From Flavobacterium keumense (GTDB lineage: Bacteria; Bacteroidota; Bacteroidia; Flavobacteriales; Flavobacteriaceae), in assembly GCF_029866485.1 (NCBI RefSeq), contig NZ_CP092332.1, positions 558,001-622,000 of the forward strand: DNA of 64,000 bases. The letters are read 5' to 3'. The stretch's first letter is position 1, and each line of letters opens with the position of its first letter. This document shows, in pieces, positions 5,860-36,837 of the stretch. Both the position numbers and the translations under genes were made by a program. The notes beneath the pieces are model-generated. The model did no database searches, was not told the DNA's origin, and saw only the letters and a list, made by a program, of their open reading frames with translations.

Positions 5860-5871
5860 CTTAAAATTATT

Positions 5872-12193: not shown

Positions 12194-14755
12194 TTAATTC
12201 AAAATTATTTTAGCTTCAAATAAGCTATTATTAATAAATCCTTTTACAATATATACACCTTGATTCGCTTTAAATCCATTATCTAAAAACCCATCCCAAT
12301 AGAACGTTGGATTAGAATTATCTACTGTTGTTTCAATTTTTTTAACAGGAAAACCATTTAAATCAAATACATATGCATAAATTGAGCTTAATGATTTAAT
12401 ATTTTCAAAATGAAAATTAAAAAACGAATTAGATGGATTTGGAAAAACAATAGGATGAATTAATTCCTCCTTTTCCGAGGTGGTTTTTGCGACCGAGGTT
12501 ACGCCTCCAGTACTTATATTATAAATTTTAACTTCTGAAGCGTTTGCGGTTCCTCCCCTTGCATAGAGATCAATTCCATTAACAACACCTGATGGAAATA
12601 CTCTTGTAGCGAAAGCTAGTTCTTCATTAATAAATACCTCTACTACTGAAGCATCAACAAAAATTCGCCATTTAATATCGCCGGCTGGAAGTTCGTATGC
12701 AGTAGATTGATTTGTTTTTGGCACATCGCTAAGTACTGATGATTTACTTCTATCTACAACAAAACTTTTATTAGCTACATCATAATATATAAGTGTTTGT
12801 TCAGTAGTTGCTGTATTTTTATGTAAAACGAAACCTACTTTAGTTGCTGTCCCTGGATTTGTAGTGGCAACAATTTCATATTGAGAACCACTTGCTCCAT
12901 TTAAGATATTGGTACTAGAGTCATCATAACTTAAATTACTAAAAGACGTTGATTGACCACTTCTCAAATTTAGAAGATTGGGATGGGGTACCTGCTTGAT
13001 TTTAGAATTTACAAGAGTCCATGCTCTTGGTAAACTGAATACATTAGCCCAACCTTGACTCTTATGCTTTGCAGAAGTTACATTATCAGGAATAATCCCA
13101 ATCGCAGTTAAATTTCCATTAGCATCCTTACCAATGGAAGGGGATAATAATTGATTGATTAATTCTAAACTTGTAGGAACTTGTGAATCAACAATAAATT
13201 TTGAGCCATTAAAATTACCTGTCCAGTATAAAGAATTCGCATTCGGAAGTTTATTAATCAAAAGAATCGATTTAGACCCAAAATTATAATATATAGGCAT
13301 CTCCCAGAATTCACCAGTCTGATCTACACTAGGACTACCTTCTAACATAGTCCCTTGTAAATCCCATTTAGTAAAATCTGGCAAAGCTGATTTATATAAA
13401 AACAATCCACCTCTAGCGGTTCCGTTTCTTAATCCGGTACCCACCATCATATACCAATTTGAGTTATATTCAAAAACAAAAGGGTCTCTAAAATCGGCAT
13501 GAGTATATCCGGTTGTAGGAGCACTTGTAATAACAGGAGAAGTGTTTTTATTCCATGTGTCAAAAGGTGAATTTGATTTAGCAAGTCCAATTGCGGCTTT
13601 TGCTTTGTTCACTCCTGTATAGAATAAATAAGGATTATCGCCCGTAACAACAACATGACCTGACCAAATACCAACTTCATCAAAACCTGGCTGAGGCCAT
13701 AATACTTGTTGTTTTTCTTCCCAATTCACCAAATCAGTGCTCACATAATGTCCCCAATTGATATGTTCTAAATAGGGACCGTTAAAGTTACGCTGACTAA
13801 ATAGATGGTATTTTCCTTGTAAATAAAACAATCCATGTGACTCATTTGTCCATCCAGCAGAAGGCGCTAAATGATACTTAGGTCTGTGCTTATCGTTTTT
13901 ATATCTTTCTGCTATAGGTATTGACAAATTAGGTGTTGGTACAGTCACTGTACTAAATTGAGATTTAATTTCATTAGTAGTTAAAATATTGTCCCAAACA
14001 CTCACTTTATCAATCGCCCCAGTCAATCCATTAGTATCAAAACCCGCAACAGTTTTAACCTTAGACTCTTTCCCAATAAATACTGACGCTGAATTATCCC
14101 ACACCAGACTACCTCCAGTAAATGTTTTAGTTTGTACCAAATCTCCATTTAGATAAAGCTCGGCTTTTCCATTTGTTCCAGTCACATTCATTGTAATAAA
14201 ACTCCATTTTTTAAGTGGAATTTGAACGTCCGAAACGATCTGACTTAATGTGCTTCCTACCATACATTGACCAATTATTCTCCCATACTGATCAACTCCT
14301 AAAGCAACTCCAGCCCCTGTTGAAGGATTCACGTTTGAGAAAATAGAAGCTACAGTATTTTCAGTAATTGGGTCAGCATCTTTTCTCTGTACAGGAAAAG
14401 CAGAAGGAGCTACCCATCCAGTTATTGCAACATTTGAAGTTGGATAAGTGACATTAATTTTCCCAGAGGCCCAACCATAAAAACCATTTACAACTATGGC
14501 ATTACCCTCTACGCCTACTATTCTCTCTGCAGCCCCACTAGGAACATTAATCGTTAAATTTGAACCGGTTTTACTTTCATTTGTTGTTTCTCCATTTGAT
14601 TCATTAAACTTGAATGATACTATTTCTTTAGCATTGATAGTTGTTGGCGGTTTTGGATTAGGGTCAATTGGAGAAGGTGGTGTTGATGTTTTTTTAGAAC
14701 TACAACTCACTAATATAACCATAGATAGGAAACCCAAAAAGATACATTTCTTCAT
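12194..14755 (-). CDS. LamG-GH32 surface protein with T9SS sorting domain and altered nucleophile motif
   Basis: An 853-residue protein. In order it has a lipoprotein-type signal (ILVSC, Cys18), a low-complexity Pro-rich linker, a LamG/concanavalin-like domain (about 45-270), a GH32 propeller and sandwich (about 288-755), and a T9SS type A sorting domain (about 770-853, PNPSNSFFNF... and GVYIVKG). In the GH32 part the usual WMNDPNG is WTNESHG, putting E305 where the nucleophilic Asp is expected. The FRDP motif is intact (R423, D424), and the acid/base motif reads WEMP (E485). It may be a divergent surface endo-fructanase or a binding protein. Carrying both a lipobox and a T9SS domain is unusual. 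It is the first gene of the GH32 pair. Confidence 0.88.
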   Translation of the reverse strand: MKKCIFLGFLSMVILVSCSSKKTSTPPSPIDPNPKPPTTINAKEIVSFKFNESNGETTNESKTGSNLTINVPSGAAERIVGVEGNAIVVNGFYGWASGKINVTYPTSNVAITGWVAPSAFPVQRKDADPITENTVASIFSNVNPSTGAGVALGVDQYGRIIGQCMVGSTLSQIVSDVQIPLKKWSFITMNVTGTNGKAELYLNGDLVQTKTFTGGSLVWDNSASVFIGKESKVKTVAGFDTNGLTGAIDKVSVWDNILTTNEIKSQFSTVTVPTPNLSIPIAERYKNDKHRPKYHLAPSAGWTNESHGLFYLQGKYHLFSQRNFNGPYLEHINWGHYVSTDLVNWEEKQQVLWPQPGFDEVGIWSGHVVVTGDNPYLFYTGVNKAKAAIGLAKSNSPFDTWNKNTSPVITSAPTTGYTHADFRDPFVFEYNSNWYMMVGTGLRNGTARGGLFLYKSALPDFTKWDLQGTMLEGSPSVDQTGEFWEMPIYYNFGSKSILLINKLPNANSLYWTGNFNGSKFIVDSQVPTSLELINQLLSPSIGKDANGNLTAIGIIPDNVTSAKHKSQGWANVFSLPRAWTLVNSKIKQVPHPNLLNLRSGQSTSFSNLSYDDSSTNILNGASGSQYEIVATTNPGTATKVGFVLHKNTATTEQTLIYYDVANKSFVVDRSKSSVLSDVPKTNQSTAYELPAGDIKWRIFVDASVVEVFINEELAFATRVFPSGVVNGIDLYARGGTANASEVKIYNISTGGVTSVAKTTSEKEELIHPIVFPNPSNSFFNFHFENIKSLSSIYAYVFDLNGFPVKKIETTVDNSNPTFYWDGFLDNGFKANQGVYIVKGFINNSLFEAKIILN

Positions 14756-23203: not shown

Positions 23204-24135
23204 TTAAACAGCATTATAGCCCATTAAGATACCCAGGCGGTAAAGTTTCTCTTTATGATTTTTTAAAAAAAATGCTTAAGCAAAATGGCATAATAGATGG
23301 AGTTTATGCAGAAGGATTTGCTGGCGGTGCAGGAGCTGCATTAAAGTTATTAATGCTTGAAGAAGTCAATGAAATTTATCTAAATGATAAAGATAAATTT
23401 ATTTATAAATTTTGGGATTCAGTTTTAAATCATACAGATGAACTTTTAGCATTGATAAATGATACAAAAGTTAATTTAGATGAATGGAATTACAGAAAAA
23501 AAATTTTAAAAAGCGAAGAAATCCAAAAAGATTTATCTGATGTACAAATCGCATTTACAACCTTCTTCTTAAATAGGTCTAATAGATCAGGAATTTTAAA
23601 AGCTGGTGTAATAGGAGGAAAAGAGCAAGAAGGAGAATGGAAAATTGATGCTAGGTATAACAAAGCTGATTTAATGAAAAGAATTGAAAAGATTTTTTAT
23701 TATAAAGAAAGAATCCATTTGTCAAATAAAGATGTTATAGATTTTTTTAATGATCTAAAAAAGAAAAAATTTAAAGAAAATGAAATTTTGTATTATTTAG
23801 ACCCTCCATATGTTCAGCAAGGTAAAGAACTATATTTAGAATATTTTAATCATTCAGATCATATTAGATTATCAAAATATCTACAAAAAAATTTAAAAAA
23901 TGTTTGGTTGACTTCATATGATGATCATTCACTTATACATTCAATATACAAGGAAGTCACCAAAAATATTTTTGAATTCAATTATTATGCAAATAAAACT
24001 AAAATAGGTAAAGAACTAATTATTGCTAGTAAAAATTGTAAGATGGTAAATGAGTATTCTCATTATTCTAGAAAAAAAATTATTACGGATAATATTGAAA
24101 TTAATGAATTAATACTCAATATTAAGAAGGCATGA
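23200..24135 (+). CDS. Dam-like DNA adenine N6-methyltransferase (D12 class)
   Basis: A 311-residue D12-class (MT-A70-unrelated, Dam-type) methyltransferase. It has the N-terminal SAM-binding RYPGGK (10-15), a glycine-rich motif I-like FAGGAG (40-45), and the catalytic DPPY (201-204). It should methylate adenine N6 at a short site. The start overlaps the ParB-like gene by 4 bp and the stop overlaps hsdS by 4 bp, both in the ATGA arrangement. A D12 methylase is not part of a normal type I system, where HsdM does the modification, so it either protects against the host system, marks a second site, or works with the ParB-like protein. Confidence 0.88.
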   Translation: MIKQHYSPLRYPGGKVSLYDFLKKMLKQNGIIDGVYAEGFAGGAGAALKLLMLEEVNEIYLNDKDKFIYKFWDSVLNHTDELLALINDTKVNLDEWNYRKKILKSEEIQKDLSDVQIAFTTFFLNRSNRSGILKAGVIGGKEQEGEWKIDARYNKADLMKRIEKIFYYKERIHLSNKDVIDFFNDLKKKKFKENEILYYLDPPYVQQGKELYLEYFNHSDHIRLSKYLQKNLKNVWLTSYDDHSLIHSIYKEVTKNIFEFNYYANKTKIGKELIIASKNCKMVNEYSHYSRKKIITDNIEINELILNIKKA

Positions 24136-25352
24136 TCAATAAAAAATTACCAAAAGATTGGAAAATAGTTAAAGTTGGGAAATATGTTATTTCTACAAAA
24201 GGTAAAAAACCAAAAAGAATTTCCAAAGAAAAAACTAATGAATGTTATCTACCTTATGTAAATATAAAAGCATTTGAAAAAGGGATAGTTGACGAGTATA
24301 CGGATGGTGTTGGCTGTGTTATTTGTGAAGAAGGTGACTTTTTAATGGTTTGGGACGGCTCGCGTTCAGGATACGTAGGAAAAGCAATAAAAGGAGCATT
24401 AGGAAGTACTTTAGTGAGACTTAATTTTCCAGATTTAGAAAACAATTATGCTTATTATTTTTTACAATCAAAGTATATTGAGATTAATACAAGAGCAAAG
24501 GGAGTTGGTATTCCTCACGTAGATCCTAACTTACTTTGGAATTATTATTTATTAATACCTCCACTCGAAACCCAACAAGCCATTGTCTCCAAAATAGAAG
24601 AACTCTTTAGTGAGCTAGACAAAGGCATAGAAGATTTAAAAACCGCACAACAGCAACTCAAAACCTATCGACAAAGTGTATTGAAATGGGCTTTTGAAGG
24701 GAAGTTGACCAATGAAAATGTAAAAGAGGGTGAGCTGCCTGAGGGTTGGGAAATGGTTAATATGTCAAAAGTAATTGAAAAACCAAAATATGGAACTTCC
24801 AAAAAATGTGATTATACAATAAAGGGAATCGGAGTTTTAAGAATTCCAAATATTGCAAAAGGAATTGTTGATAGTACAGATTTAAAATTTGCAAAATTTG
24901 ACGAAAAAGAGATAGAAACTTATTCCTTAAAAGAAGGAGATATATTAACTATTCGTTCAAATGGAAGTGTTGATCTAGTTGGTAAATGTGCTTTGATTTC
25001 AAAAAAAGATGAAGGTTATTTATATGCAGGTTATTTGATTCGATTACGTCCAATAATTAATAAAGTAAACCCTAAATATTTAATTAATATACTCACATCA
25101 ATTGATTTAAGAAATCAGATTGAAGAAAAGGCAAAATCTACAAGCGGAGTAAATAACATCAATTCAGAAGAATTATCAACTTTAAAAATTCAACTTCCAC
25201 CAATTGAAGAACAACACCGCATCGTTCAAGAAATCGAAAGCCGTTTGAGTGTGGCGGATAAAATGGAGGAAAGTATTGCACAAAGCTTACAACAAGCCGA
25301 GGCATTGCGTCAGAGTATATTGAAAAAGGCGTTTAGTGGGGAGTTGGTTTAA
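24132..25352 (+). CDS. hsdS: Type I restriction specificity subunit S
   Basis: A 406-residue HsdS with the standard two-half layout. A first target-recognition domain (about 1-150) and a conserved helical spacer (about 150-195, EELFSELDKGIEDLKTAQQQL...) are followed by a second target-recognition domain (about 205-350) and a second conserved helix (about 355-406, ending RQSILKKAFSGELV). It sets the bipartite recognition sequence for both cutting and methylation. The recognition domains are AT-rich and the helical regions are not, the usual mosaic left by domain exchange. It overlaps the upstream methylase by 4 bp. Confidence 0.93.
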   Translation: MINKKLPKDWKIVKVGKYVISTKGKKPKRISKEKTNECYLPYVNIKAFEKGIVDEYTDGVGCVICEEGDFLMVWDGSRSGYVGKAIKGALGSTLVRLNFPDLENNYAYYFLQSKYIEINTRAKGVGIPHVDPNLLWNYYLLIPPLETQQAIVSKIEELFSELDKGIEDLKTAQQQLKTYRQSVLKWAFEGKLTNENVKEGELPEGWEMVNMSKVIEKPKYGTSKKCDYTIKGIGVLRIPNIAKGIVDSTDLKFAKFDEKEIETYSLKEGDILTIRSNGSVDLVGKCALISKKDEGYLYAGYLIRLRPIINKVNPKYLINILTSIDLRNQIEEKAKSTSGVNNINSEELSTLKIQLPPIEEQHRIVQEIESRLSVADKMEESIAQSLQQAEALRQSILKKAFSGELV

Positions 25353-25363
25353 AATAATAGAAT

Positions 25364-26773
25364 ATGGGTGGTTACTTCGGAAAAGGAAATAATAGAAATA
25401 CTGAATCATTGGAGAGTTTAGTTTTTAATAGATTTAAACAATTTCTTAGTAAAGACTTTGTTATTAACAACAAAATTAATTGGGAAGTAGATAATCAACT
25501 CTCTTTTTTTGATTTAGTAATATTCAAAAAAAATGAACCAATAGCGATAATTGAAATTAAAAATAATTTATTAGAGGATGATAAGAATACTTACCTTGTG
25601 TTTTGTGAAAAAACTACCACTCTAACAAATACTAGATTTTGTATTATTACTGACAATAATTCCTTTTATTTTTATGAAAGGAATAAAAACGAAGTTTTGA
25701 AATACACATTTGATGAAATCATAAGTCAAATCAACAATTTTAAATACAGTTCAGTTAATCCCCAGCAAATTGAAACCGTCTTAAAGATTATTAAAGACAC
25801 AGCTAAACTATATCTTGATGATAATAAAGATTTTATTAAATATATTGATGATAATTTAATAGCAAACACTATCGGTTTTGATGAAATAAAAAATTGTTTT
25901 CATTTTAATGAATTGGAAAACAATAACTTTAATTCTTTTGAAAACATTTTCTTTACACATTTACTAGGTGAATTTAAAGCAAAAACAATTTACAGATATA
26001 CATCATTAAATACTCTATTTGATTCAATTAAAAACCTTTCATATAGAATGAGTGGTATAATGGGAATGAATGACAAATCTGAAGCAAATTTTGTAGACCA
26101 ATATTTTAGTAAAATAGAAACAAAGCCGATTAATGAGAAACCATTAAACTTTCAGCACCACAAAACTATATCGTCCTTGAACAAAAGATATATTAGTTCT
26201 TGCTCAACTAACAAAGATGATTTAACACTTTGGCGATTATATGGTGATGATGCTAAAGGTGTTTGTCTAGGATTTAAAATTAATTCTGAAAAAAATAATT
26301 CTAGCTTTCTTATTAATAAAGTTAAATATGCAAATAGTAAAGGTGAGCTAAAAGAGTTAGATTTTATCGCCGAAATAATACGTAATGTAAAAAGCCAAAC
26401 AGACTTTAATTTTGAATTTAGAAAGCTTAAAATATGGAGACATTTTTTTAAACCCTATGAATACGAAATTGAAAAAGAAATAAGAATTTTGGCTATTGAT
26501 AATGAATTCTTGGAAAAAATTAATGAAGATTGGGTTTTAACAAATAGTAATTCAATTATTAATCCAGTGATTGATTTTAGATTAAATGACTTAAAATCTC
26601 CATTTCAACTAAGTGAAATAATTATTGGGCCAAAATGTCCAGAGAAAATTATAAATCAAGTACAAATTAGGGAAATGATAGTGCGGAAAAACATTGAAAT
26701 AAAAGCAAAAAAACTTAATTCAAATTTAAGTGGTATTAAAGTATCACCTTCAAAGATTGAACATTACCGATAA
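25364..26773 (+). CDS. HSDR_N-like nuclease fused to DUF2971-like domain
   Basis: A 469-residue protein inserted between hsdS and hsdM. The N-terminal ~130 residues resemble a type I R-subunit N-terminal nuclease, with D50 in FFDLVIF and E64-x-K66 in IIEIKNN forming a PD-(D/E)XK core. Residues about 215-430 look like DUF2971 (YRYTSLNTLFDSI..., then ISSCSTNKDDLTLWRLYGDDAKGVCLGFK). DUF2971 proteins are common beside defence genes, but their activity is not established. The gene is AT-rich like the ParB-methylase pair. It starts 11 bp after hsdS, so it is expressed with the system. An accessory effector is the likeliest role; this is inference. Confidence 0.68.
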   Translation: MGGYFGKGNNRNTESLESLVFNRFKQFLSKDFVINNKINWEVDNQLSFFDLVIFKKNEPIAIIEIKNNLLEDDKNTYLVFCEKTTTLTNTRFCIITDNNSFYFYERNKNEVLKYTFDEIISQINNFKYSSVNPQQIETVLKIIKDTAKLYLDDNKDFIKYIDDNLIANTIGFDEIKNCFHFNELENNNFNSFENIFFTHLLGEFKAKTIYRYTSLNTLFDSIKNLSYRMSGIMGMNDKSEANFVDQYFSKIETKPINEKPLNFQHHKTISSLNKRYISSCSTNKDDLTLWRLYGDDAKGVCLGFKINSEKNNSSFLINKVKYANSKGELKELDFIAEIIRNVKSQTDFNFEFRKLKIWRHFFKPYEYEIEKEIRILAIDNEFLEKINEDWVLTNSNSIINPVIDFRLNDLKSPFQLSEIIIGPKCPEKIINQVQIREMIVRKNIEIKAKKLNSNLSGIKVSPSKIEHYR

Positions 26774-26815
26774 ATTATTAAAATACAAATCCAAAAAACA
26801 TTTATAACATAACAA

Positions 26816-28306
26816 ATGAGTAAAGAAAATGCAAACGCATCCAGTATAGTCAGTAAAGTATGGGCATTTTGCCAAACCCTTAGAGACGATGGTGTAGGCT
26901 ATGGCGACTACTTGGAGCAGTTAACTTATTTGTTATTTTTAAAAATGGCTGATGAATATAGCAAACCACCACATAATAGAAAAATGCCTATTCCTAGCGA
27001 GTATGCTTGGGATACGCTAATTAGTAAAAGTGGTAGTGAGTTGGAAAGTCACTACAACAATATGTTGCGTGAGTTAGCCAAAGAAAAAGGTATTTTAGGG
27101 CAAATCTTTGTCAAGAGTCAGAACAAAATACAAGACCCTGCCAAGCTATACAAACTCATCGCACTCATCAATGCCGAAAACTGGATATTGATGGGCGTAA
27201 AAGACAAAGGCGATATCTATGAAGGCATCTTAGAAAAAAACGCAGAAGATACCAAGAGTGGCGCAGGGCAATACTTTACCCCAAGACCATTAATTAAGGC
27301 TATGGTAGAATGTTTGCGTCCAGAACCTATGAAAACCATAGCGGATCCAGCTTGTGGTACAGGAGGTTTCTTTTTGGCTGCTTATGATTGGATAGTTGAC
27401 AATAGAGATTTAGACAAAGAAGAAGCTAAGTTTTTGAAATATGAAACGTTTTTTGGTAATGAAATAGTAGCCAGTACACGTCGTTTGGCGTTAATGAATT
27501 TGTTCTTGCACAACATTGGGGATATTGAATCGGATAATTTTATTTCACCTAATGATTCTTTGATTACCGATTCGGGTACACGTTATGATTACATTTTAGC
27601 CAATCCGCCTTTTGGTAAAAAGAGTAGCATGACCTTTACCAATGCAGAAGGCGAACAAGAAAAAGAAGATTTGACCTATAACCGTCAAGACTTCTGGGTA
27701 ACAACAAGCAACAAGCAATTGAACTTTGTGCAACATATTCGCACCATGTTAAAAACTACTGGTCAAGCCGCTGTAGTATTACCTGATAATGTATTGTTTG
27801 AAGGTGGTGTAGGTGAAACCGTACGTAAAAAGTTATTAGAAACCACCGATTTGCATACGATTTTGCGTTTGCCAACAGGTATTTTTTATGCCAATGGTGT
27901 CAAAGCGAATGTATTGTTCTTTGATGGGAAACCCTCAAGTAAAGAACCTTGGACAAAAGAGGTTTGGGTCTATGATTACAGAACCAACATTCACCATACG
28001 TTGAAGAAAAATCCGTTAAAATTATCGGATTTAAAAGATTTCATTGCGTTATACAATCCAGAAAATCGCCATAAGAGAACGGAAACTTACCACGCTGAAA
28101 CCAATCCAGAAGGTCGTTGGAGAAAATTTGGTTACGATGAAATCATAGCAAGAGACAAAACGAGTTTAGACATCACTTGGCTGAAAGATAAATCCTTAGC
28201 TGATTTAGATAATTTACCCGACCCTGATGTTTTGGCAACGGATATTATAGAAAATATTGAAGCGGGATTGGAAAGTTTTAGAGCAATAATAGCGAGTTTG
28301 AAATAA
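26816..28306 (+). CDS. hsdM: Type I modification methyltransferase subunit M
   Basis: A 496-residue HsdM. The N-terminal helical domain (about 8-135) is followed by the N6-adenine methylase core: GQYFTPRPLI (151-160), SAM-binding motif I DPACGTGGF (177-185) and catalytic NPPF (263-266). It methylates adenine in the sequence chosen by HsdS and is also needed for restriction by the R2M2S complex. The order hsdR-(extra)-hsdS-(extra)-hsdM is unusual because M and S are normally adjacent and overlapping. Base composition matches hsdR. Confidence 0.95.
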   Translation: MSKENANASSIVSKVWAFCQTLRDDGVGYGDYLEQLTYLLFLKMADEYSKPPHNRKMPIPSEYAWDTLISKSGSELESHYNNMLRELAKEKGILGQIFVKSQNKIQDPAKLYKLIALINAENWILMGVKDKGDIYEGILEKNAEDTKSGAGQYFTPRPLIKAMVECLRPEPMKTIADPACGTGGFFLAAYDWIVDNRDLDKEEAKFLKYETFFGNEIVASTRRLALMNLFLHNIGDIESDNFISPNDSLITDSGTRYDYILANPPFGKKSSMTFTNAEGEQEKEDLTYNRQDFWVTTSNKQLNFVQHIRTMLKTTGQAAVVLPDNVLFEGGVGETVRKKLLETTDLHTILRLPTGIFYANGVKANVLFFDGKPSSKEPWTKEVWVYDYRTNIHHTLKKNPLKLSDLKDFIALYNPENRHKRTETYHAETNPEGRWRKFGYDEIIARDKTSLDITWLKDKSLADLDNLPDPDVLATDIIENIEAGLESFRAIIASLK

Positions 28307-30228: not shown

Positions 30229-31071
30229 CTACAATCTATCTAAAGGGCTTTTAATCTTATTTTTAGCTACATCTGTTAACTGGGTATAGACTTTAGTGGT
30301 ATTTAGGTGACTGTGCCCCAATAGCTCTTGAATGTGACGAATATCAGTACCCATATCCAATAAATGAGTTGCAAAGCTACGCCTAAGAATATGAGGACAA
30401 ATTCTTTTGTTGACACCTGATTTTATAGCACTTTGTTTTACTATTTGTTGAATACTTCTTCCTGAGTATTGCAGATTATTTTGTCCTTCAAATACATAAT
30501 AGCTAGGTTGGTATTTTAAACAATACTGTCTAAAAATTAGTAAGAAACTTTCAGACAGCATCACTTGACGCTCTTCCTTGCCTTTAGCTTGTCGAATAGT
30601 GATGGTCATGGAGTTGGAATCTATATCAGTTATTTTTAAATTAACAACTTCGCTAAGACGCAAGCCTCCTGAGTACAATAGCATTATGATACTTTTGTGT
30701 TTTAAGTTAGTAGTTACATCAATGAGTTTTCTTACTTCGGCAAATGTTAGGAAGTTGGGTAATTTATGTTCTTTCCTTTTTGGGTAAAGATGTTTTAGAT
30801 TGATTCTTTTGACTAATACCAACTCATAAAATTTAGCAATACTAGCCAAAATAATACGTTGATGGGAGGCGCTTATGTTGTCTTTTTTAATTTTCCAAAA
30901 GATGTATTGCTCTATTGCTGCTATTTCAATTTCTTCAGCAGAAGTATACTTGTGAGAAGCAACTGTTAAAAACAGGGACGCATTACTTTGATAGTTCTTT
31001 ATAGAGGAAGGACTGTAACGTTGAATTTGTAAACGCTCGGTATAGCGTTGCAGGTAAATTTGAATATCCAT
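30229..31071 (-). CDS. Tyrosine recombinase, probable integron-type integrase
   Basis: A 280-residue tyrosine recombinase with an N-terminal SAM-like core-binding domain (about 1-90) and a catalytic domain with all expected residues: R138 (GGLRLSEV), K164, H227-x-x-R230 (HILRRSFATH), H253 (LLGHSHLNTT) and nucleophile Y262. The length is close to XerC/XerD, and I do not see the extra helix block that marks classical IntI proteins between the R and HxxR boxes. It is transcribed away from an array of plus-strand cassettes that begins about 180 bp upstream of its start, the layout of an integron. Function as the cassette recombinase is inferred from that layout and the paired cassette ends. Confidence 0.85.
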   Translation of the reverse strand: MDIQIYLQRYTERLQIQRYSPSSIKNYQSNASLFLTVASHKYTSAEEIEIAAIEQYIFWKIKKDNISASHQRIILASIAKFYELVLVKRINLKHLYPKRKEHKLPNFLTFAEVRKLIDVTTNLKHKSIIMLLYSGGLRLSEVVNLKITDIDSNSMTITIRQAKGKEERQVMLSESFLLIFRQYCLKYQPSYYVFEGQNNLQYSGRSIQQIVKQSAIKSGVNKRICPHILRRSFATHLLDMGTDIRHIQELLGHSHLNTTKVYTQLTDVAKNKIKSPLDRL

Positions 31072-31200
31072 CGTAATCGATTTGGGTTGGGATGATAAAT
31101 GTAAGAAACTTGCGTCAATTAAATTAATTTACTTACAAATTTTTTAGTTTTAGTATAGAAATATGGTATTCCCAACAATAAAGCGCTTAATCATAAATGG

Positions 31201-31257
31201 ATGTACGCATGTTTGTAAATTCGAATGTACGCAATGCGTATATTTGGGTGTTATAGG
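31201..31257 (+). other. attI-like primary recombination site
   Basis: Between the recombinase and the first cassette. Two direct repeats ATGTACGCA lie at 31201-31209 and 31225-31233 (24-bp period), as expected of recombinase-binding repeats in attI. The inferred crossover is G31250|T31251: the TTATAGG that follows is complementary to the far end of cassette 1 at 32200-32207. Confidence 0.58.
31212..31246 (+). promoter_or_regulatory. Possible cassette promoter inside the attI-like region
   Basis: TTTG at 31212-31215 and TATATTTG at 31239-31246. The second box fits TANNTTTG exactly, but the spacer is 23 nt instead of 19-21. Its position just before the first cassette is where an integron cassette promoter would lie. 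Confidence 0.4.
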
Positions 31258-31268
31258 AAATTATACAC

Positions 31269-32216
31269 ATGAATACAATAGGATTTTTATCGTTTGAACC
31301 TTGGTATATTTTGGAGGAAACACCAATCGCAAAAGATATACTGTTTTTTGACAAATTAATGTTCAGTTCAGCAAGTATTGCATCTGCAGAATTAGTGTGT
31401 TCAAATCTGCCTTTAAGACCATGCGATAAGGACTTAGTGAAGCGAAAGCTGAAGGAAATAGAAATATATATGAAGGCAGGATTAATTATTGATTATTCTG
31501 CTAATGATTTCAAAAAAGACTATGCAATTTTCCACTCAATTGATGAGACCAAAGATTTAGGTCAATACTTAATTGAAAGCGACTTTGAAAACCCATATTT
31601 AGATAAAAACAATCCGAAAGACAATATTTTTGGTTCTCTTAGTTCGTTAAGAGAAATAGTCGAATTAAAATCTCGGATTTTTTCAATTATTAATAACTCT
31701 AAGAGTTCAGACCATTACATACCAATTATTCGAGAAAAATATAAGAAGACATTAATCACAGAGAAGTTAGATATTTCGGATGCTGTTAGAGTAGTATTAA
31801 AAAAAATTCCAATTATAAATGAAAATATTTCTATTGAAAATGTCATTGAGTTTAAATCCGATCCCGACACAAAATTAAAATTGGGTCGTTTACGAAATTG
31901 GATAACCGAAGTATCTAACACAAAAATGAGTACGAAGGAAATGGAAGAGAAAATAGAATATCTTCTTTTGGAGTATTCGAATCATATGAATCTCCACAGA
32001 ATTGAATACGATTTTGGGAAAATTGAAACTATAGTATCAACTTCCTTGTCTTTCATTGAAAATTTAGCAAAATTGAAGTTAAGTGAAGCTAGCAAAGTAA
32101 TATTTGATTTGACTAGAACTGAAATTCGATTGTTAAAAGCGGAGAATAGTGCACCAGGTAAAGAAGTAGCCTTTATTAATAAATTGAATAAAATAACTTC
32201 CTATAACAGCTTGTAA
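31269..32216 (+). CDS. Cassette 1 gene: hypothetical protein
   Basis: A 315-residue soluble protein with no signal peptide or clear membrane segment and a strongly helical C-terminal half (about 215-300). It opens with MNTIGFLSFEPWYILEETPIAKDILFFDKLMF, which suggests a beta-rich N-terminal domain. I do not recognise the family. It is the only gene in the first cassette. Its start lies 18 bp after the cassette boundary, and its stop codon falls inside the attC-like site, the tight packing typical of integron cassettes. A defence or stress function would be a guess from the neighbouring cassettes. Confidence 0.7.
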   Translation: MNTIGFLSFEPWYILEETPIAKDILFFDKLMFSSASIASAELVCSNLPLRPCDKDLVKRKLKEIEIYMKAGLIIDYSANDFKKDYAIFHSIDETKDLGQYLIESDFENPYLDKNNPKDNIFGSLSSLREIVELKSRIFSIINNSKSSDHYIPIIREKYKKTLITEKLDISDAVRVVLKKIPIINENISIENVIEFKSDPDTKLKLGRLRNWITEVSNTKMSTKEMEEKIEYLLLEYSNHMNLHRIEYDFGKIETIVSTSLSFIENLAKLKLSEASKVIFDLTRTEIRLLKAENSAPGKEVAFINKLNKITSYNSL

Positions 32217-32280
32217 GCAATATTACCTTGCCGCAGGCGCAACACAAGGCAACATCGCCTACAAGCAAACCGTTGGTGGC
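32200..32280 (+). other. attC-like site 1
   Basis: Left core CCTATAAC (32200-32207), then CAGC and the arm GCTTGTAAGC (32209-32218). The opposing arm GCCTACAAGC (32257-32266) follows, then AAACCG|TTGG with the inferred crossover at 32272|32273. The left core is complementary to the start of cassette 1 at 31250-31257. An inner CCTTG/CAAGG pair strengthens the fold. The cores keep only AAC/GTT of the classical RYYYAAC/GTTRRRY consensus. Confidence 0.7.
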
Positions 32281-32308
32281 AATACTACAGAATCTACACA
32301 CCTAACAA

Positions 32309-33202
32309 ATGAGCAACAAAAAAGATAAAGATTTTAAAAAGCTTTCAATTGACACCTTCTTCAATTTTGAAGCAGACGGAATTGATATAGCCCAAAGTCA
32401 AGTCAAATTAATTCATAATTCCGGAGATATTTACGCTTCTGGAAGTCAGTTAGAAGTTGCTATTAGGAATTTCTTCAAAAAGAAACTACCAGAGAAGTAT
32501 TATATAAGTAATGGTCATATTATAGACACTAGCCTTTCAACTAGTCCTCAATTAGATTTAATCATTGCTGACAATTTTAGAACACCAATTTTATACAAGA
32601 CATTTGATGAAACAGAATATTTGACATATGAATCAATTTATGCTTATGCTGAAATTAAATCGAGTTGGAATAAAAAACATATTGACGATTTTGTAACTAC
32701 AAAAGAAAGGCTTAATAAATTCTTAACGAGAGAAAATATTAGCCCACAATTTTTAGATGCTGGAGGAAAAGGAATAATGCTGAATATTCCAACTACTACA
32801 AATGAATATAAAAATCCTTTATTTTCTTTTATGTTTATAGGCGACAGTTCATCATTTTCATTTGAACATATTAAGGATTATTACAATAAAACTGATTGGA
32901 AGTTTTTGCCAAATATCATTTGTCTTTATGATAGAGGGTTAATAGTTAATATAAACAAAGCAGAATTAGAAAGCAATATATTTAAAGTGAACTTATACCC
33001 AGAATTTATAAATAAAAATAATGAGAATAATGAATGGATTCTTTTAAAGTTTGACAAGAAAAGAAGCTCATTAGGCACATTGTATTATATGGTTTTAGAG
33101 CACTTAAATACTTGCGTTTTGGGAAGTCCAAATATGCTTGAGTACTTACAGAATATTTTTGAAATTAACCCTAACAATATTGACTTTATAAACGAATTTT
33201 AA
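32309..33202 (+). CDS. Cassette 2 gene A: DUF6602-like putative nuclease
   Basis: A 297-residue soluble protein resembling the DUF6602 family. The segment KLIHNSGDIYASGSQLEVAIRNFF...LPEKYYISNGHIID is followed by QLDLIIAD (D at about residue 86) and YAEIKSSW (E at about 114, K at about 116). The last two fit a PD-(D/E)XK nuclease core, an inference from motif spacing. It is the first of two genes in one cassette and is separated from the next by a single base, so the two should act together. Family members often occur near defence genes. Confidence 0.68.
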   Translation: MSNKKDKDFKKLSIDTFFNFEADGIDIAQSQVKLIHNSGDIYASGSQLEVAIRNFFKKKLPEKYYISNGHIIDTSLSTSPQLDLIIADNFRTPILYKTFDETEYLTYESIYAYAEIKSSWNKKHIDDFVTTKERLNKFLTRENISPQFLDAGGKGIMLNIPTTTNEYKNPLFSFMFIGDSSSFSFEHIKDYYNKTDWKFLPNIICLYDRGLIVNINKAELESNIFKVNLYPEFINKNNENNEWILLKFDKKRSSLGTLYYMVLEHLNTCVLGSPNMLEYLQNIFEINPNNIDFINEF

Positions 33203-33203
33203 T

Positions 33204-34268
33204 ATGATAGAAATTAGCGAATTAGAAATAAATAGAATAGTAATACACAGAGTTCATAAGAAAACTGATAGTGATGAGTTTGGGTTTGCAGAATATTCTG
33301 AAAATCTCTTTACATTTGGTGCTTTAGAACTTGAAACACTAAAAAGTAGAATTGGCACTGCATTTTCCAAGGCTAAAAGATTTTTTAAACTTGAAATTGC
33401 TAAATCAGACGATAATTCATTTTATGGATATTCGAGGAGTATTAAAAATGCAGATAATGATAGATTTTTAGACTTATCAAAAAGCATTTCAGATTTGTTA
33501 GCAATGAGTCATAATAAAAAGACCATTCCAGCTGGCTTATTGCTCATTCTTGATGGCTTTTTGCACAGAAAACACTTTGTACTTGTAATTAAAGCAGAAT
33601 TACAAGAAGCATTTACAATCAAAGAGTTTAACAATCAGAAACTAATTGAACTTGTAAATGATTTATTCCTCTCACCAGCAAAAGATTTTTACAAAATAGG
33701 TTTTATTATTGAAGATACAAATAATCTTACTCCACCGAATGATATATATTCTTGTTATATGTATGATGACAATTTTAGCAGTGGCAAACGAGATTTAGCA
33801 GAATATTTTTATAATGAGTTTTTAGGTTTTCAAACAAACAGAAATGATAAATTGGTTACAAAAAGATTTAAAGATGACTTATTTCAATTCATTGAAACTA
33901 ATGTAGCATCATTTGAAGATAAAAGAGGGCTTAAAAACGCTTTAAATACATTATACAGAGAAAACACAACAGGAATAATAAATCCTCAAGAATTTGCAGA
34001 AACTCACTTTCCAGAAAATTTATTAAGATTGTTTGGAAGTGAAGTAGGTTCAAATTACCCTACTTCTTTCACTAAAGACTTGACTTTAGTAGAAAGAAGT
34101 TTAACGAGAGGACAAATAAAACTTGTAGATGACCTTAAAATCGAAGGACCTTTAGATGCAATAGATAATGTATCAATTTCAAGTGGACAAAATTTTGACT
34201 TTGAAAGATTAAGAATGCAAATAGAAAACGGTGAGATAAGACAAGTAATAACAATTAAAACCGAATAA
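33204..34268 (+). CDS. Cassette 2 gene B: NA37/YejK-like nucleoid-associated protein
   Basis: A 354-residue protein resembling the 37-kDa nucleoid-associated (NA37, YejK/NdpA) family. It has an N-terminal ..EINRIVIHRVHKK.., a central hydrophobic strand pair (AGLLLILDGFLHRKHFVLVIKAE), a ..YFYNEFLGF.. helix followed by a long helical stretch, a ..FAETHFPENLLRLFG.. segment, and a short beta-rich C-terminus. The match is by pattern recall, not alignment. Family proteins bind DNA in the nucleoid. Pairing with a DUF6602-like putative nuclease in one cassette suggests a two-gene defence or DNA-surveillance unit. Its stop lies 7 bp before the attC-like site. Confidence 0.6.
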   Translation: MIEISELEINRIVIHRVHKKTDSDEFGFAEYSENLFTFGALELETLKSRIGTAFSKAKRFFKLEIAKSDDNSFYGYSRSIKNADNDRFLDLSKSISDLLAMSHNKKTIPAGLLLILDGFLHRKHFVLVIKAELQEAFTIKEFNNQKLIELVNDLFLSPAKDFYKIGFIIEDTNNLTPPNDIYSCYMYDDNFSSGKRDLAEYFYNEFLGFQTNRNDKLVTKRFKDDLFQFIETNVASFEDKRGLKNALNTLYRENTTGIINPQEFAETHFPENLLRLFGSEVGSNYPTSFTKDLTLVERSLTRGQIKLVDDLKIEGPLDAIDNVSISSGQNFDFERLRMQIENGEIRQVITIKTE

Positions 34269-34274
34269 AGTACT

Positions 34275-34410
34275 GCCACCAACAGCATATTTATGAAATG
34301 GCGGGTTTAGTGCTAAAATGAAACTATGTGTATCAAAGAAAGTTAAGTACAAAAAAGAAACATCGGTTTTCAAAAGCCTCCACTTCATAAATATGCAAAA
34401 CGTTGGCAGT
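34275..34410 (+). other. attC-like site 2
   Basis: Left core GCCACCAAC (34275-34283), AGC, then a perfect 13-bp arm pair: GCATATTTATGAA at 34285-34297 facing TTCATAAATATGC at 34384-34396. AAAACG|TTGGCAGT follows, with the crossover at 34402|34403. The left core is the exact 9-bp complement of the start of cassette 2 (GTTGGTGGC, 32272-32280). The loop is about 86 bp. Any short ORF read across it is not a gene. Confidence 0.8.
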
Positions 34411-34448
34411 AATTTTAAAGCCGTACAGAAATCTAAACAACTAAAAAA

Positions 34449-35198
34449 TTGGAAAACAAATACATTTTTACAGTATTTTATCAGAATAATAAATTTCTAT
34501 CACATTCAAATTTATATGGACACGATATATGTATTGTCTGTGAAGAAGATGATAGACCGCCAAATTGCTTATTTACATCTCCACATTTATCAAGTTTAAT
34601 TAATCCAGAAGAAATTTGGGCAAGAGCATTAACTTTAATGTCTTTATACAATGGAGTAGCGAATTTATATTGCACAATAAACGATGATTATGATGACACT
34701 TCTAATCAAAAACTTGTCAAAATGTTTATTTGGGATAAGTTTATAGATATAACTCCACAAAATAAATTTGATATCGCTCAAAGTTATCCCTTTGATGACG
34801 AATTAGTCTTGGATACAAAATTTTTATCAGTCAAAAACAGATTTGCTTATTTAATAAATTTATCAAAAACAGAAAATGATATTTTGCATATTCTTCTACA
34901 ATTAGGTAATGGATTGGAATGGATTAATTTATACTCAATATTTGATTCACTTCGAACTTATTCAAAAAAAATTAATAAAAATCATTTCAAAAATATATTA
35001 GCTGATTCAGGTTATTCAGAAACAGATATTCACGCATTTACAGGAACAGTAAATAATTATGGAATACTTGGTGTTAAAGCAAGACACGGAGAATTAGGTA
35101 TTGGAATGCCTCAAAAAACACTTAATTTAAAAGAATCTCAAATTCTAATTCTCTCTATTTGTAAATCATATATGAAATTGACTTATAGTGTAGAATAA
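34449..35198 (+). CDS. Cassette 3 gene A: hypothetical protein
   Basis: A 249-residue soluble protein of unknown family. The N-terminal part contains a CxxC-like pair region (YGHDICIVCEEDDRPPNCLFTSPHLSSL) followed by predominantly helical sequence. It has no signal peptide, membrane helix or recognised catalytic motif. It begins 47 bp after the cassette boundary and is followed 44 bp later by a HEPN-like gene in the same cassette, so the two may form a functional pair. An overlapping upstream frame (34318-34599) runs through the attC fold and is not supported. Confidence 0.65.
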   Translation: MENKYIFTVFYQNNKFLSHSNLYGHDICIVCEEDDRPPNCLFTSPHLSSLINPEEIWARALTLMSLYNGVANLYCTINDDYDDTSNQKLVKMFIWDKFIDITPQNKFDIAQSYPFDDELVLDTKFLSVKNRFAYLINLSKTENDILHILLQLGNGLEWINLYSIFDSLRTYSKKINKNHFKNILADSGYSETDIHAFTGTVNNYGILGVKARHGELGIGMPQKTLNLKESQILILSICKSYMKLTYSVE

Positions 35199-35242
35199 AA
35201 TTTATAATTACCGCTAAAATAACTCATAAAAATAATGAATTA

Positions 35243-35734
35243 ATGACTTTAAACGAACAAAATTTTTACTCACAAATTGGTCAAATATCAATTGGTTTTT
35301 CAAATCTTGAAAGCCAAATAAAAGAACTTATTTATATCTTAATTAAGTCCGAAGATGAATTTGTAAGTTCTATAATGTTAGAAGATAATTCAATTAGTCA
35401 AAATCTAAAACTCTTATTAAAATTATCGAAATATCACGAAATTGAAGAAGTCAAAATTAAATCTTTACATAATTCAATTGATAAGATTAGAATAAACAGA
35501 AATCTATTTATTCATGGGCTTTGGAGTTTACACGAAACCGAAAATGGATTGGTCTTTGTTTGCGAGGTTAGAAAAGTAGAATTTAAAAAAGTAACTCATG
35601 GGTTCGTAAAAATATTAAATAAATTTCTTGAGTTCAAGCCACAAGATTTTGAAGATGAATTAACTCAAATAAAAAAGTGTTCAGAAATTGCAGTAGAAAT
35701 TACGAACACTTTAAAAGAAAATAGATATTGGTAA
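35243..35734 (+). CDS. Cassette 3 gene B: HEPN-like helical protein
   Basis: A 163-residue, almost wholly helical protein. Around residues 95-102 it reads RINRNLFIHGLW, containing R-N-x-x-x-H, the R-x4-6-H motif typical of HEPN-domain RNases. The preceding helix (FSNLESQIKELIYILIKSEDEF) fits the first HEPN helix. HEPN proteins in defence and toxin-antitoxin settings cut RNA. Activity here is inferred from the motif and cassette setting only. The stop lies 7 bp before the cassette end core at 35742, the same tight spacing as in cassette 2. The upstream gene in the cassette may be its partner or antitoxin. Confidence 0.62.
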   Translation: MTLNEQNFYSQIGQISIGFSNLESQIKELIYILIKSEDEFVSSIMLEDNSISQNLKLLLKLSKYHEIEEVKIKSLHNSIDKIRINRNLFIHGLWSLHETENGLVFVCEVRKVEFKKVTHGFVKILNKFLEFKPQDFEDELTQIKKCSEIAVEITNTLKENRYW

Positions 35735-35741
35735 AAAAAAT

Positions 35742-35756
35742 ACTGCCAACAGCGGT
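35742..35756 (+). other. Truncated attC-like site 3
   Basis: Left core ACTGCCAAC (35742-35750) followed by AGCGGTA. The core is the exact 9-bp complement of the start of cassette 3 (GTTGGCAGT, 34402-34410). The right arm and right core are missing: the sequence runs into the insertion-sequence segment, and no matching half is seen on its other side. Confidence 0.65.
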
Positions 35757-35758
35757 AA

Positions 35759-36837
35759 CTGTTGCACAACTACCATTTTTTAAAATATCCCGAAGCATCG
35801 GGACAAAAAACATAAAATTCCGACCTCGTTTAAGCCCTTTTAAGCGAGGTTTGTTATTTAGTTCTTATAGAAAATTCTAAAATTTTGGGTGCTTAAATTT
35901 GAGATTATGACGTCTTGATAGACCGTTTTTACAAAAGCAAAGCACTTCCCTTGTTTTAGGGAAATAACTTGGGCTAAAATGGATGGTTTTTTGATGGTAA
36001 AGCGTAAGTATTTAGCTTCGCTGCAACTTCGTGGACTTCAAGTTATAGGTTAAACTTGCCATTAATACGTGTTTGTTTGCGTTTTGATACCTCGGTTGTT
36101 TTTAGGCGTTTACTCTTCGGAAGTTATCTAGACCAAAAATAAATCCTTAGCACTGCGCTGAGTACAAGCAAACTTTTAGAAAAACAAATTGACCTTCTAT
36201 TGAGACGTTTTAATTGAGTACGGAGACTCAGATTCTTTCTTTCAATTCTATTGGTTCCAAAACGGGTAACTTTATGAATAGTGTTGTGAATTAAAAATTT
36301 GTAGTGAATCAACCCATCAGTATAAATTCGTTTGGGATTGGAAAGTACTACGGTTTTAATAACTTGATTGAGTGTTTTCTTGGTTCTTGAACCAACAGCA
36401 AAACTGATTACATTTTTATTGACTCTATCTAAAGCATATACAATCCAAATTACCTTCCCTTTATGTCGTAAAAAAGTTCTCATCTCGTCTACTTCATATA
36501 TTTGACTCGAACTAATGGGTGGCGATTGAACTCCTTTGGCAATGAATACTATACGTTTTAGTAAAGTGGTGGTAGAAATACATAAAATGCGAGCCATACT
36601 TCTAATTCCCATACCCTCTTTAATAAGCATTACAATATGGGCATTGATTTCTTTACCATAACCATTATTTGTATAAAAATCGATACATCGTTTCGTGCAC
36701 GTTTTACAATAAAATTGTTGTTTTTGGTTAGCAGTAAACCTATTTTTAATAAGTGTAGGAGCAGTACAATGAGGAAAAATTTTAGTATCGCAAATTTTGA
36801 CTCGAGCTTTTGCGAACTGAACGAAGTTATACACCAG
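35759..36837 (-). mobile_element. IS1-family element, probably inactive
   Basis: A segment of about 1.1 kb holding an IS1-type transposase gene. Possible terminal repeats are weak (CTGTTGCACAACTACC at 35759-35774 against the complement of 36822-36837, 11 of 16). The right one may instead be the edge of the Rhs-array repeat, because the bases from about 36828 onward also match the stretch after 42473. No target duplication is visible, so the ends are approximate. A hairpin at about 35822-35850 (CCTCG...CGAGG) may block read-through from the cassette array. Confidence 0.55.
36124..36834 (-). CDS. IS1-family transposase, likely defective
   Basis: A 236-residue IS1-type (InsAB-like) transposase. 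It has an N-terminal zinc-finger region (about 15-48, FPHC...YCKTC), an HTH (about 70-92) and a DDE-type catalytic part with YEVDE (about 118-122), IYTDGL (about 174-179) and the conserved ERKNLSLRTQLKRLNRR...CFSKS block. Three things point to decay. The finger reads FPHC where CPxC is expected. The open frame begins with GTG and has no upstream ATG. The left-hand sequence abuts a truncated attC. IS1 copies are common in this group, and this one probably caused or followed the loss of the last cassette's attC half. Confidence 0.82.
   Translation of the reverse strand: MYNFVQFAKARVKICDTKIFPHCTAPTLIKNRFTANQKQQFYCKTCTKRCIDFYTNNGYGKEINAHIVMLIKEGMGIRSMARILCISTTTLLKRIVFIAKGVQSPPISSSQIYEVDEMRTFLRHKGKVIWIVYALDRVNKNVISFAVGSRTKKTLNQVIKTVVLSNPKRIYTDGLIHYKFLIHNTIHKVTRFGTNRIERKNLSLRTQLKRLNRRSICFSKSLLVLSAVLRIYFWSR

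Follow-up and report, generated by a model that had tools for sequence, protein, structure and literature searches.

Does the locus at 30229-35750 of the stretch analysed here represent an integron built on a recombinase other than IntI? The stretch (the window) comprises 64,000 nucleotides of the Flavobacterium keumense chromosome, a single contig of 2.54 Mb (NZ_CP092332.1, positions 558,001 to 622,000), and the locus consists of a tyrosine recombinase (YR) gene, an attI-like site and an array of three gene cassettes. An earlier note, made from the letters of the window, had read it as a divergent integron class. That reading is supported: the platform very probably works like an integron and forms a distinct class in Bacteroidota. 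Neither of the contrary results named in the note was obtained, these being the same genes in relatives with no breaks at the predicted crossovers, and a recombinase grouping with XerC/D and never associated with such sites. Compared loci and genomes carry the prefixes L and G, a vertical bar marks the predicted cut, and published work is cited from the accessible parts of its text.

Cassette ends

When a cassette circularises in an integron its two ends meet, so that its R'' and R' boxes are complementary; the R'' and R' that lie together within one array site need not be. The end pairs of the earlier note were found where it had placed them: GTTATAGG at 31250 with CCTATAAC at 32200, GTTGGTGGC at 32272 with GCCACCAAC at 34275, and GTTGGCAGT at 34402 with ACTGCCAAC at 35742. 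The recombinase lies on the minus strand and faces a plus-strand array, as described there. The ends of all three cassettes match, but the third cassette is incomplete, its attC having been mostly lost beside an IS1-family element. Past ACTGCCAAC just AGCGGTAACTGTTG... is left, the transposase gene lying at 36124-36834, and neither the parser nor the covariance model located a third attC site in the window.

Ends were scored over six nucleotides. The first array set gave six matches in 51 of 65 cassettes and at least five in 57, against a mean of 2.69 for ends taken across cassettes; after removal of repeated end pairs, 28 of 42 were perfect and 34 matched at five or more positions. Several neighbouring end pairs of this set were left unscored. 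Because the training sites had been picked with matched ends in view, the test was repeated on the arrays of G068 and G175, which lay outside model building. Here 42 of 44 cassettes had perfect ends (the others scored 2 and 4), repeated end pairs being kept, while the cross-cassette mean was 2.71 and the best of 20000 shuffles averaged 3.61 of 6.

The 12-mer GCAAAMCGTTGG, offered in the earlier note as common to the sites, failed as a marker: alone it is not diagnostic, with 22 one-mismatch matches in the genome versus 34 for the reversed control. Three features do exceed chance: matched cassette ends, hairpin folding and the position of the breakpoints.

Breakpoints and cassette movement

The attI core TATATTTGGGTG|TT is present in the window and in L061, the two sequences being near-identical through the G and divergent beyond it. 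An attI-like element alike up to the G and followed by different sequence was found in the window, L061, L062, L070, L074, L075, L110 and L113. Pairs whose attI is the same or nearly so and whose sequences part at G|TT are the window and L061, L111 and L112, and L102 and L103; conservation up to a fixed cut with different cassettes after it was also seen in L101-L105 and L107.

Whole cassettes recur between different neighbours. A tet(X) cassette of 1327 bp is 100% identical in L103, L104, L105 and L122; L105 has it directly after attI, whereas L103 and L104 have it inside the array. When the four are compared, identity stops within 1-7 bases of G|TT on both sides where the neighbours differ; between L104 and L122 it continues upstream into a common neighbour. 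Other tet(X) copies are 92-93% identical (L123) or, in L102, one cut short and one diverged. Cassette 1 of the window recurs in G410 with 82% identity over 31250-32275, with the same ends and a different next cassette, and the copy is preceded by GATGCTATATACAAG|TT, a sequence consistent with the attI-like ends found after type B recombinases (see below). Homologues of the cassette 2 genes (72%) follow TTATATACAAG|TT in G091, where the ends GTTGGCAGT/ACTGCCAAC replace GTTGGTGGC/GCCACCAAC, changed jointly and still matched. Relatives thus break at the crossovers that the earlier note had predicted.

A published experiment bears on the same point. In an experiment published in 2026, Riemerella anatipestifer was transformed with aph(3')-IVb, and the gene entered together with 27 bp of preceding and 140 bp of following sequence (PMC13148043). 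The insertion took place without flanking homology at a target flanked by relE, a helix-turn-helix gene and others; the 140 bp have an attC-like fold, and the authors suggest site-specific recombination by a mechanism not fully elucidated. They report no integron near the insertion, and the accessible text names no integrase, attI or matched ends. In strain RCAD0416, the source of the L123 record, the authors place aph(3')-IVb on a plasmid. A 262-aa APH(3') gene of L123 lies in a 956-bp cassette (13577-14532) that begins 28 bases before the gene. The predicted cassette (28 + 789 + 139 = 956) and the published unit (27 + 789 + 140 = 956) concern the same gene and have the same length, and the one-base offset falls inside the GTT common to both ends. 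We read this as independent evidence that cassettes insert at the predicted ends; it does not identify the enzyme.

Gene-less hairpin elements (GTAGCGAGGAAATCCCT..., GTTGGGAAAAATCGCCC...) recur near the cut of attI and of several attC sites, at L108 (several site ends), L121 (13259 and 16328) and downstream of the L041 recombinase. They resemble small repeats that have entered at G|T.

Folding and covariation of attC-like sites

Both complete sites of the window fold as single strands better than shuffled sequences, as the earlier note had proposed checking. Folded as DNA, site 1 does so on the bottom strand only (z -3.02, 1 of 200 shuffles as good; top strand z 0.07, 99 of 200) and site 2 on both strands (z -4.72 and -4.77, 0 of 200 as good). 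The perfect 13-bp arm pair attributed to site 2 is present.

Stem covariation was measured on 16 sites from ten loci, out of 19 located by a parser that requires matched ends; three of the seven L070 sites, two of them containing an N, were excluded, and for a further candidate, L104_1, no end was located. The predicted 17-pair stem has compensatory changes at 16 pairs and 92% of its cells paired. Its covariation is 0.648; shuffling lowers this to 0.152 on average, and displacing the stem by 1-3 columns lowers it to 0.103 or less. Chance palindromes as the source of the sites were ruled out by this covariation and the matched-end test; repetitive extragenic palindromes or insertion sequence (IS) ends were ruled out as the source of the repeats, each cassette having its own ends.

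A census was taken from the best 94 of 119 model matches. Thirteen of the 94 transcribed sites were dropped because AAC or GTT was not located; the 81 kept reduced to 49 non-redundant sites, of which 48 were folded. The classical attC consensus is GTTRRRY for R' and RYYYAAC for R''. Among the 49 sites, where the way of counting itself makes AAC and GTT common, GTTRRRY occurs in 2 and RYYYAAC in 4, and core sequences vary among cassettes outside AAC and GTT; the R' boxes of the window (GTTATAG, GTTGGTG and GTTGGCA) do not fit the consensus.

Fold stability favoured the bottom strand in 36 of 47 untied sites and the top strand in 11. The outer stems of the 48 sites contain 88 G.T wobbles in bottom-strand folds, 82 of them in one orientation, versus 27 in top-strand folds; where the bottom strand has G.T wobbles the top strand has A.C mismatches. 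By analogy, these positions may mark the strand in the way that extrahelical bases do in classical attC (PMC2727003). Rfam returned a single tRNA from five loci at the gathering threshold, and ten matches, all sub-threshold, from L070 at a permissive threshold.

The recombinase

The window recombinase matched Pfam Phage_integrase (4.7e-39), NCBIfam NF040815 with 201.2 bits (cut-off 220) and the integron integrase model TIGR02249 with 187.2 bits over two stretches, below its cut-off of 265. R138, K163, H227, R230, H253 and Y262 occupy what we take to be the positions of the usual catalytic residues. The solved structures nearest by sequence are 5hxy and 4a8e. The earlier note's impression that the IntI-specific insertion is lacking was confirmed by alignment: the region comprises 63-64 residues in all 48 aligned relatives (63 in the window), 105 in IntI (4 rows) and 69-71 in Xer proteins (6 rows).

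Phylogeny placed the recombinase in a clade of its own, apart from both IntI and XerC/D. The type A clade (24 rows) had supports of 99/99, IntI 100/100 and six XerC/D-like rows 100/99, on separate branches, in a tree with 4 IntI rows only, long branches flagged by the program and a root that is not resolved. Types A and B were labelled beforehand from length and placement, an array being demonstrated for part of the 48 family rows; type B, a second subfamily, lies mostly upstream of its array and co-oriented with it. The platform recombinase is outside the IntI family by three features, namely absence of the I2 insertion, a TIGR02249 score below the cut-off and a position outside the IntI clade.

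Two close relatives are from Flavobacterium sp. according to their protein records. All relatives in phage and plasmid records were below 60% identity, and a scan of IMG/VR with the recombinase (six peptide patterns) confirmed no relative. The genome itself holds four recombinase copies, that of L061 being 83% identical to the window's. The paralogues at L061 6443-7647 and L062 6109-7313 adjoin cas1 and cas2, and that of L061 additionally adjoins a CRISPR-like repeat array. Type A recombinases at L063 6919-7761 (62% identical) and L100 1596-2438 (59%) have a decayed attI-like sequence and no sites, and the sequence downstream is partly alike between the two genomes; they are perhaps a sub-branch with another target.

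Distribution of the sites

Genomes were scanned with covariance model R1 at E <= 1e-5, the E-values being rough and the candidates scored per genome being capped at 11 or 16. Sites were found in 142 of 296 sampled Bacteroidota genomes (80 of 139 genera) and in 163 of 199 genomes of the same genus. The G068 array comprises 31 sites on one strand over ~36 kb and adjoins a type B-like recombinase. Of 39 further YR loci, 15 had a site nearby; the 10 loci of this set with XerC/D-like or other YR genes had none. The association of recombinase and sites, on which the earlier note had made its reading depend, thus holds near family recombinases in many genomes, not all.

Canonical IntI was above the cut-off in 2 of 40 site-bearing genomes. 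R1 found no site on a Gemmatirosa plasmid or on a class 1 integron plasmid, both of which carry canonical IntI; a large integron has been described on a 1.1-Mb Gemmatirosa replicon (PMC9024848). In the family to which G738 belongs, 21 of 148 genomes had a recombinase match at E <= 1e-60. Within the genome studied, more attC-like sites lie away from the four recombinase copies (G000:C1 2501690-2502862 and 1833054-1833191), and the model found no site in L064-L069 (113 kb, five 20-kb stretches round copies of the 12-mer and one neighbouring stretch).

Proposed mechanism and alternative explanations

In the mechanism proposed, the recombinase would join a double-stranded attI to an attC folded as a single-stranded hairpin and cut at G|TT. 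An excised circle would carry one attC with perfectly complementary end boxes R'' and R'; insertion would split the boxes, leaving a cassette that starts with R' and ends with R'', and repeated insertion would build an array of co-oriented sites open to shuffling. The enzyme would act without an I2 helix and on sites without fixed R boxes, a long near-duplex stem serving instead, and the conserved top-strand A.C mismatches (bottom-strand G.T wobbles) would mark strand polarity. The window recombinase is presumably the catalyst of cassette recombination, the bottom strand of attC is presumably used in single-stranded form, and excised cassette circles are expected to exist.

Recombination could instead be double-stranded, a Xer-like enzyme using the short complementary ends as cores, with the hairpin a by-product or in some other role. 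This is unlikely, since compensatory changes at 16 of 17 stem pairs and one orientation in 82 of 88 wobbles are unneeded for double-stranded use, and the would-be cores differ between cassettes outside AAC and GTT. Cassettes could also move, with no site-specific step, if DNA taken up by the cell recombined homologously at attC repeats that resemble each other. In favour of this, some attC sites are near-copies of one another (49 non-redundant among the 81 located), and R. anatipestifer is reported to be naturally transformable (PMC13148043). However, the breaks fall at G|TT and are not scattered across the repeat, the cassettes have their own matched ends, and the published aph(3')-IVb insertion had no flanking homology (PMC13148043), so that this explanation was judged very improbable and rejected. 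Scarcely credible, and likewise rejected, is a classical IntI integron with diverged sequences. Its overall architecture is the same, and TIGR02249 ranks with the best matches in NCBIfam (187.2 bits), but that score is under 265, the insertion is absent in 48 of 48 relatives and IntI forms its own 100/100 branch. The sites argue likewise: GTTRRRY occurs in 2 of 49, the site model finds nothing on the two IntI-bearing plasmids, and 38 of 40 site-bearing genomes hold no IntI over the cut-off.

Several observations weigh against an integron-like platform of a distinct class, the reading preferred here. The choice of training sites favoured matched ends, which leaves the G068 and G175 test as the only unbiased one, and ends were mismatched in 8 of 65 cassettes of the first set (below 5 of 6) and in 2 of 44 in G068 and G175; mismatched neighbouring ends could stem from missed sites, insertions or decay. 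Site 1 scored just 50 bits with the covariance model. A complete cassette was parsed in 11 of 19 loci having an attI-like element, and the attI-like search pattern was written after the loci had been seen. The recombinase and the sites do not always coincide. A relative at E <= 1e-64 was found in 12 of 398 same-genus genomes (the present one included), with sites in 163 of 199, so that most arrays of the genus use more distant family enzymes or are orphan. No sites were found in L062, L063, L074, L100, L112, L113, L114 or L120 (the array side of L114 lies beyond the contig end, and the L120 site is broken), and 14 of the 39 further YR loci were relatives with no site within the short flank examined. 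No recombinase was found near the moved copies in G410 (7 kb), G091 (12 kb) and G418 (3.3 kb); the G410 and G091 copies possibly belong to orphan arrays.

Comparison with known systems

Like the IntI integrons of classes 1-3 and of chromosomes, the platform has an integrase gene by attI, a co-oriented array of hairpin attC sites with a G|TT junction, split complementary ends, a bottom-strand bias and large arrays (31 sites in G068). It differs in that its integrase lacks the I2-region insertion and falls in another clade, in R boxes that are cassette-specific, and in having a second subfamily placed mostly upstream of the array and co-oriented with it. The stem-adjacent spacers in the window are 1 and 5 nt, and A.C/G.T positions may mark the strand where classical attC, as described, has extrahelical bases. 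Xer enzymes act on dif. The window recombinase resembles XerA, XerC and XerD in fold and in the positions of the catalytic residues, and unlike them the platform has its own attI and cassette array and branches apart from the XerC/D-like rows.

An 'integron-like' subgroup of tyrosine recombinases has been described with an incompletely conserved insertion, which is nevertheless called essential for integron function (PMC8138268). Some of the present proteins may therefore already belong to that subgroup; the accessible text describes no member that lacks the insertion and has an attI, attC sites and cassettes to itself. A large survey with its own integrase profiles and attC models gave Bacteroidetes only In0 calls and then one complete integron, in Salinibacter (PMC9024848), and elsewhere Bacteroidota are listed among integron-bearing phyla (PMC9668308). 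An NCBI model bears the name 'site-specific tyrosine recombinase/integron integrase'. The class was thus partly hinted at in the sources as available, by that name, the In0 calls, the integron-like subgroup, xerD beside tet(X) and one attC-like fold. A literature search without preprints and most subscription journals returned no description of the class; an earlier one is possible.

The I2 helix has been held to be required for cassette capture, and recombination of single-stranded with double-stranded DNA to be unique to IntI (PMC7790495). A cassette platform that is widespread and lacks I2 would amount to a second solution, and that claim could then be tested. Its sites, in 142 of 296 sampled genomes, stand against the near-absence of Bacteroidetes integrons from the earlier survey (PMC9024848).

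Resistance genes as cassettes

Matched-end cassettes of L105 encode Tet(X), Erm(F), EreD, AadS and an Lnu(H)-like enzyme (below its cut-off), with erm(F) and ere(D) running against the array direction within their own cassettes. APH(3') lies in a matched-end cassette of L104; estT occupies cassettes with matched ends in both L104 and L123. On a Riemerella plasmid, 13 plus-strand sites occur within 37 kb, and the genes that separate them include lnu, tet(X), estT and aph(3'). FloR was not counted as a cassette gene: its 2.5-kb segment in L105 (oriented 4359-6837), beside EstT, has ends that match at 1 of 6 positions, and from its sequence it looks like a later insertion interrupting the estT cassette. 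The blaOXA segment of L123 was also rejected (ends 1 of 6); the L102 copy does have matched ends.

A 221-aa recombinase upstream of tet(X3) in Acinetobacter groups with the type B rows in the tree. The tet(X3) cassette head is common with the tet(X) cassettes and begins at G|TT after another sequence. At the 3' end (L120 6030-6110) the R'' box differs (GGCTACTAAC) and the site is truncated, so the Acinetobacter form is not a complete cassette. The xerD-tet(X) arrangement of Acinetobacter and Flavobacteriaceae (PMC7473080, PMC7494873) is not termed an integron in the accessible text; no integrons were reported adjacent to tet(X14), and the question was raised whether XerD mobilises tet(X) (PMC7473080).

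Taken together, it is likely that Bacteroidota hold an independent, phylum-wide integron lineage with folded sites, no I2 helix and arrays of superintegron size, and that this was the platform where tet(X), erm(F), ere(D), lnu, aadS, aph(3') and others became cassettes before some reached Acinetobacter and enterobacteria; the xerD gene by tet(X3) would then be an integrase remnant. Such a lineage could explain mechanistically how tet(X) spreads and how the homology-free insertion published in 2026 came about (PMC13148043), and a site model of the class could join integron and resistance annotation.

Features of the locus

Features of the platform and the element that closes it (window coordinates; ORF, open reading frame; CM, covariance model)
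Feature	Position	Strand	Evidence
Tyrosine recombinase, 280 aa, platform integrase, divergent to the array	30229..31071	-	Pfam, NCBIfam, tree
attI-like site, GTACGCA repeats, core TATATTTGGGTG|TT, putative cut between 31250 and 31251	31199..31252	+	
Cassette 1, 1022 bp	31251..32272	+	Matched ends; 82%-identical unit in G410
Cassette 1 ORF, 315 aa, without known family	31269..32216	+	
attC-like site 1, short type, 84 nt including boxes	32199..32282	+	Bottom-strand fold; CM 50.2 bits (training-set member)
Cassette 2, 2130 bp	32273..34402	+	Ends match 6/6
Cassette 2 ORF, DUF6602 / NucC-like nuclease	32309..33202	+	PF20247 6.4e-19; PADLOC PD_DExK 1.3e-22, NucC 1.8e-13
Cassette 2 ORF, 37-kD nucleoid-associated-like protein	33204..34268	+	PF04245 2.4e-10
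attC-like site 2, 138 nt including boxes	34275..34412	+	Folds, 13-bp arms, CM 111 bits (training-set member)
Incomplete cassette 3, its R'' end ACTGCCAAC (35742-35750) matched, remaining attC gone	34403..35750	+	
Cassette 3 ORF, 249 aa, TTG start; Pfam match sub-threshold only	34449..35198	+	
Cassette 3 ORF, 163 aa	35243..35734	+	Window 35230-35767 80% identical in G418
IS1-family transposase closing the array	36124..36834	-	NF033558 138.8 bits, cut-off 100

The cassette 1 ORF had no Pfam, NCBIfam or PADLOC match at the thresholds applied. Type I restriction-modification genes (specificity and methylase subunits, 24132-28306) adjoin the platform. The gene pair of cassette 2 (32309-34268) recurs in G091 and is possibly a two-gene defence unit.

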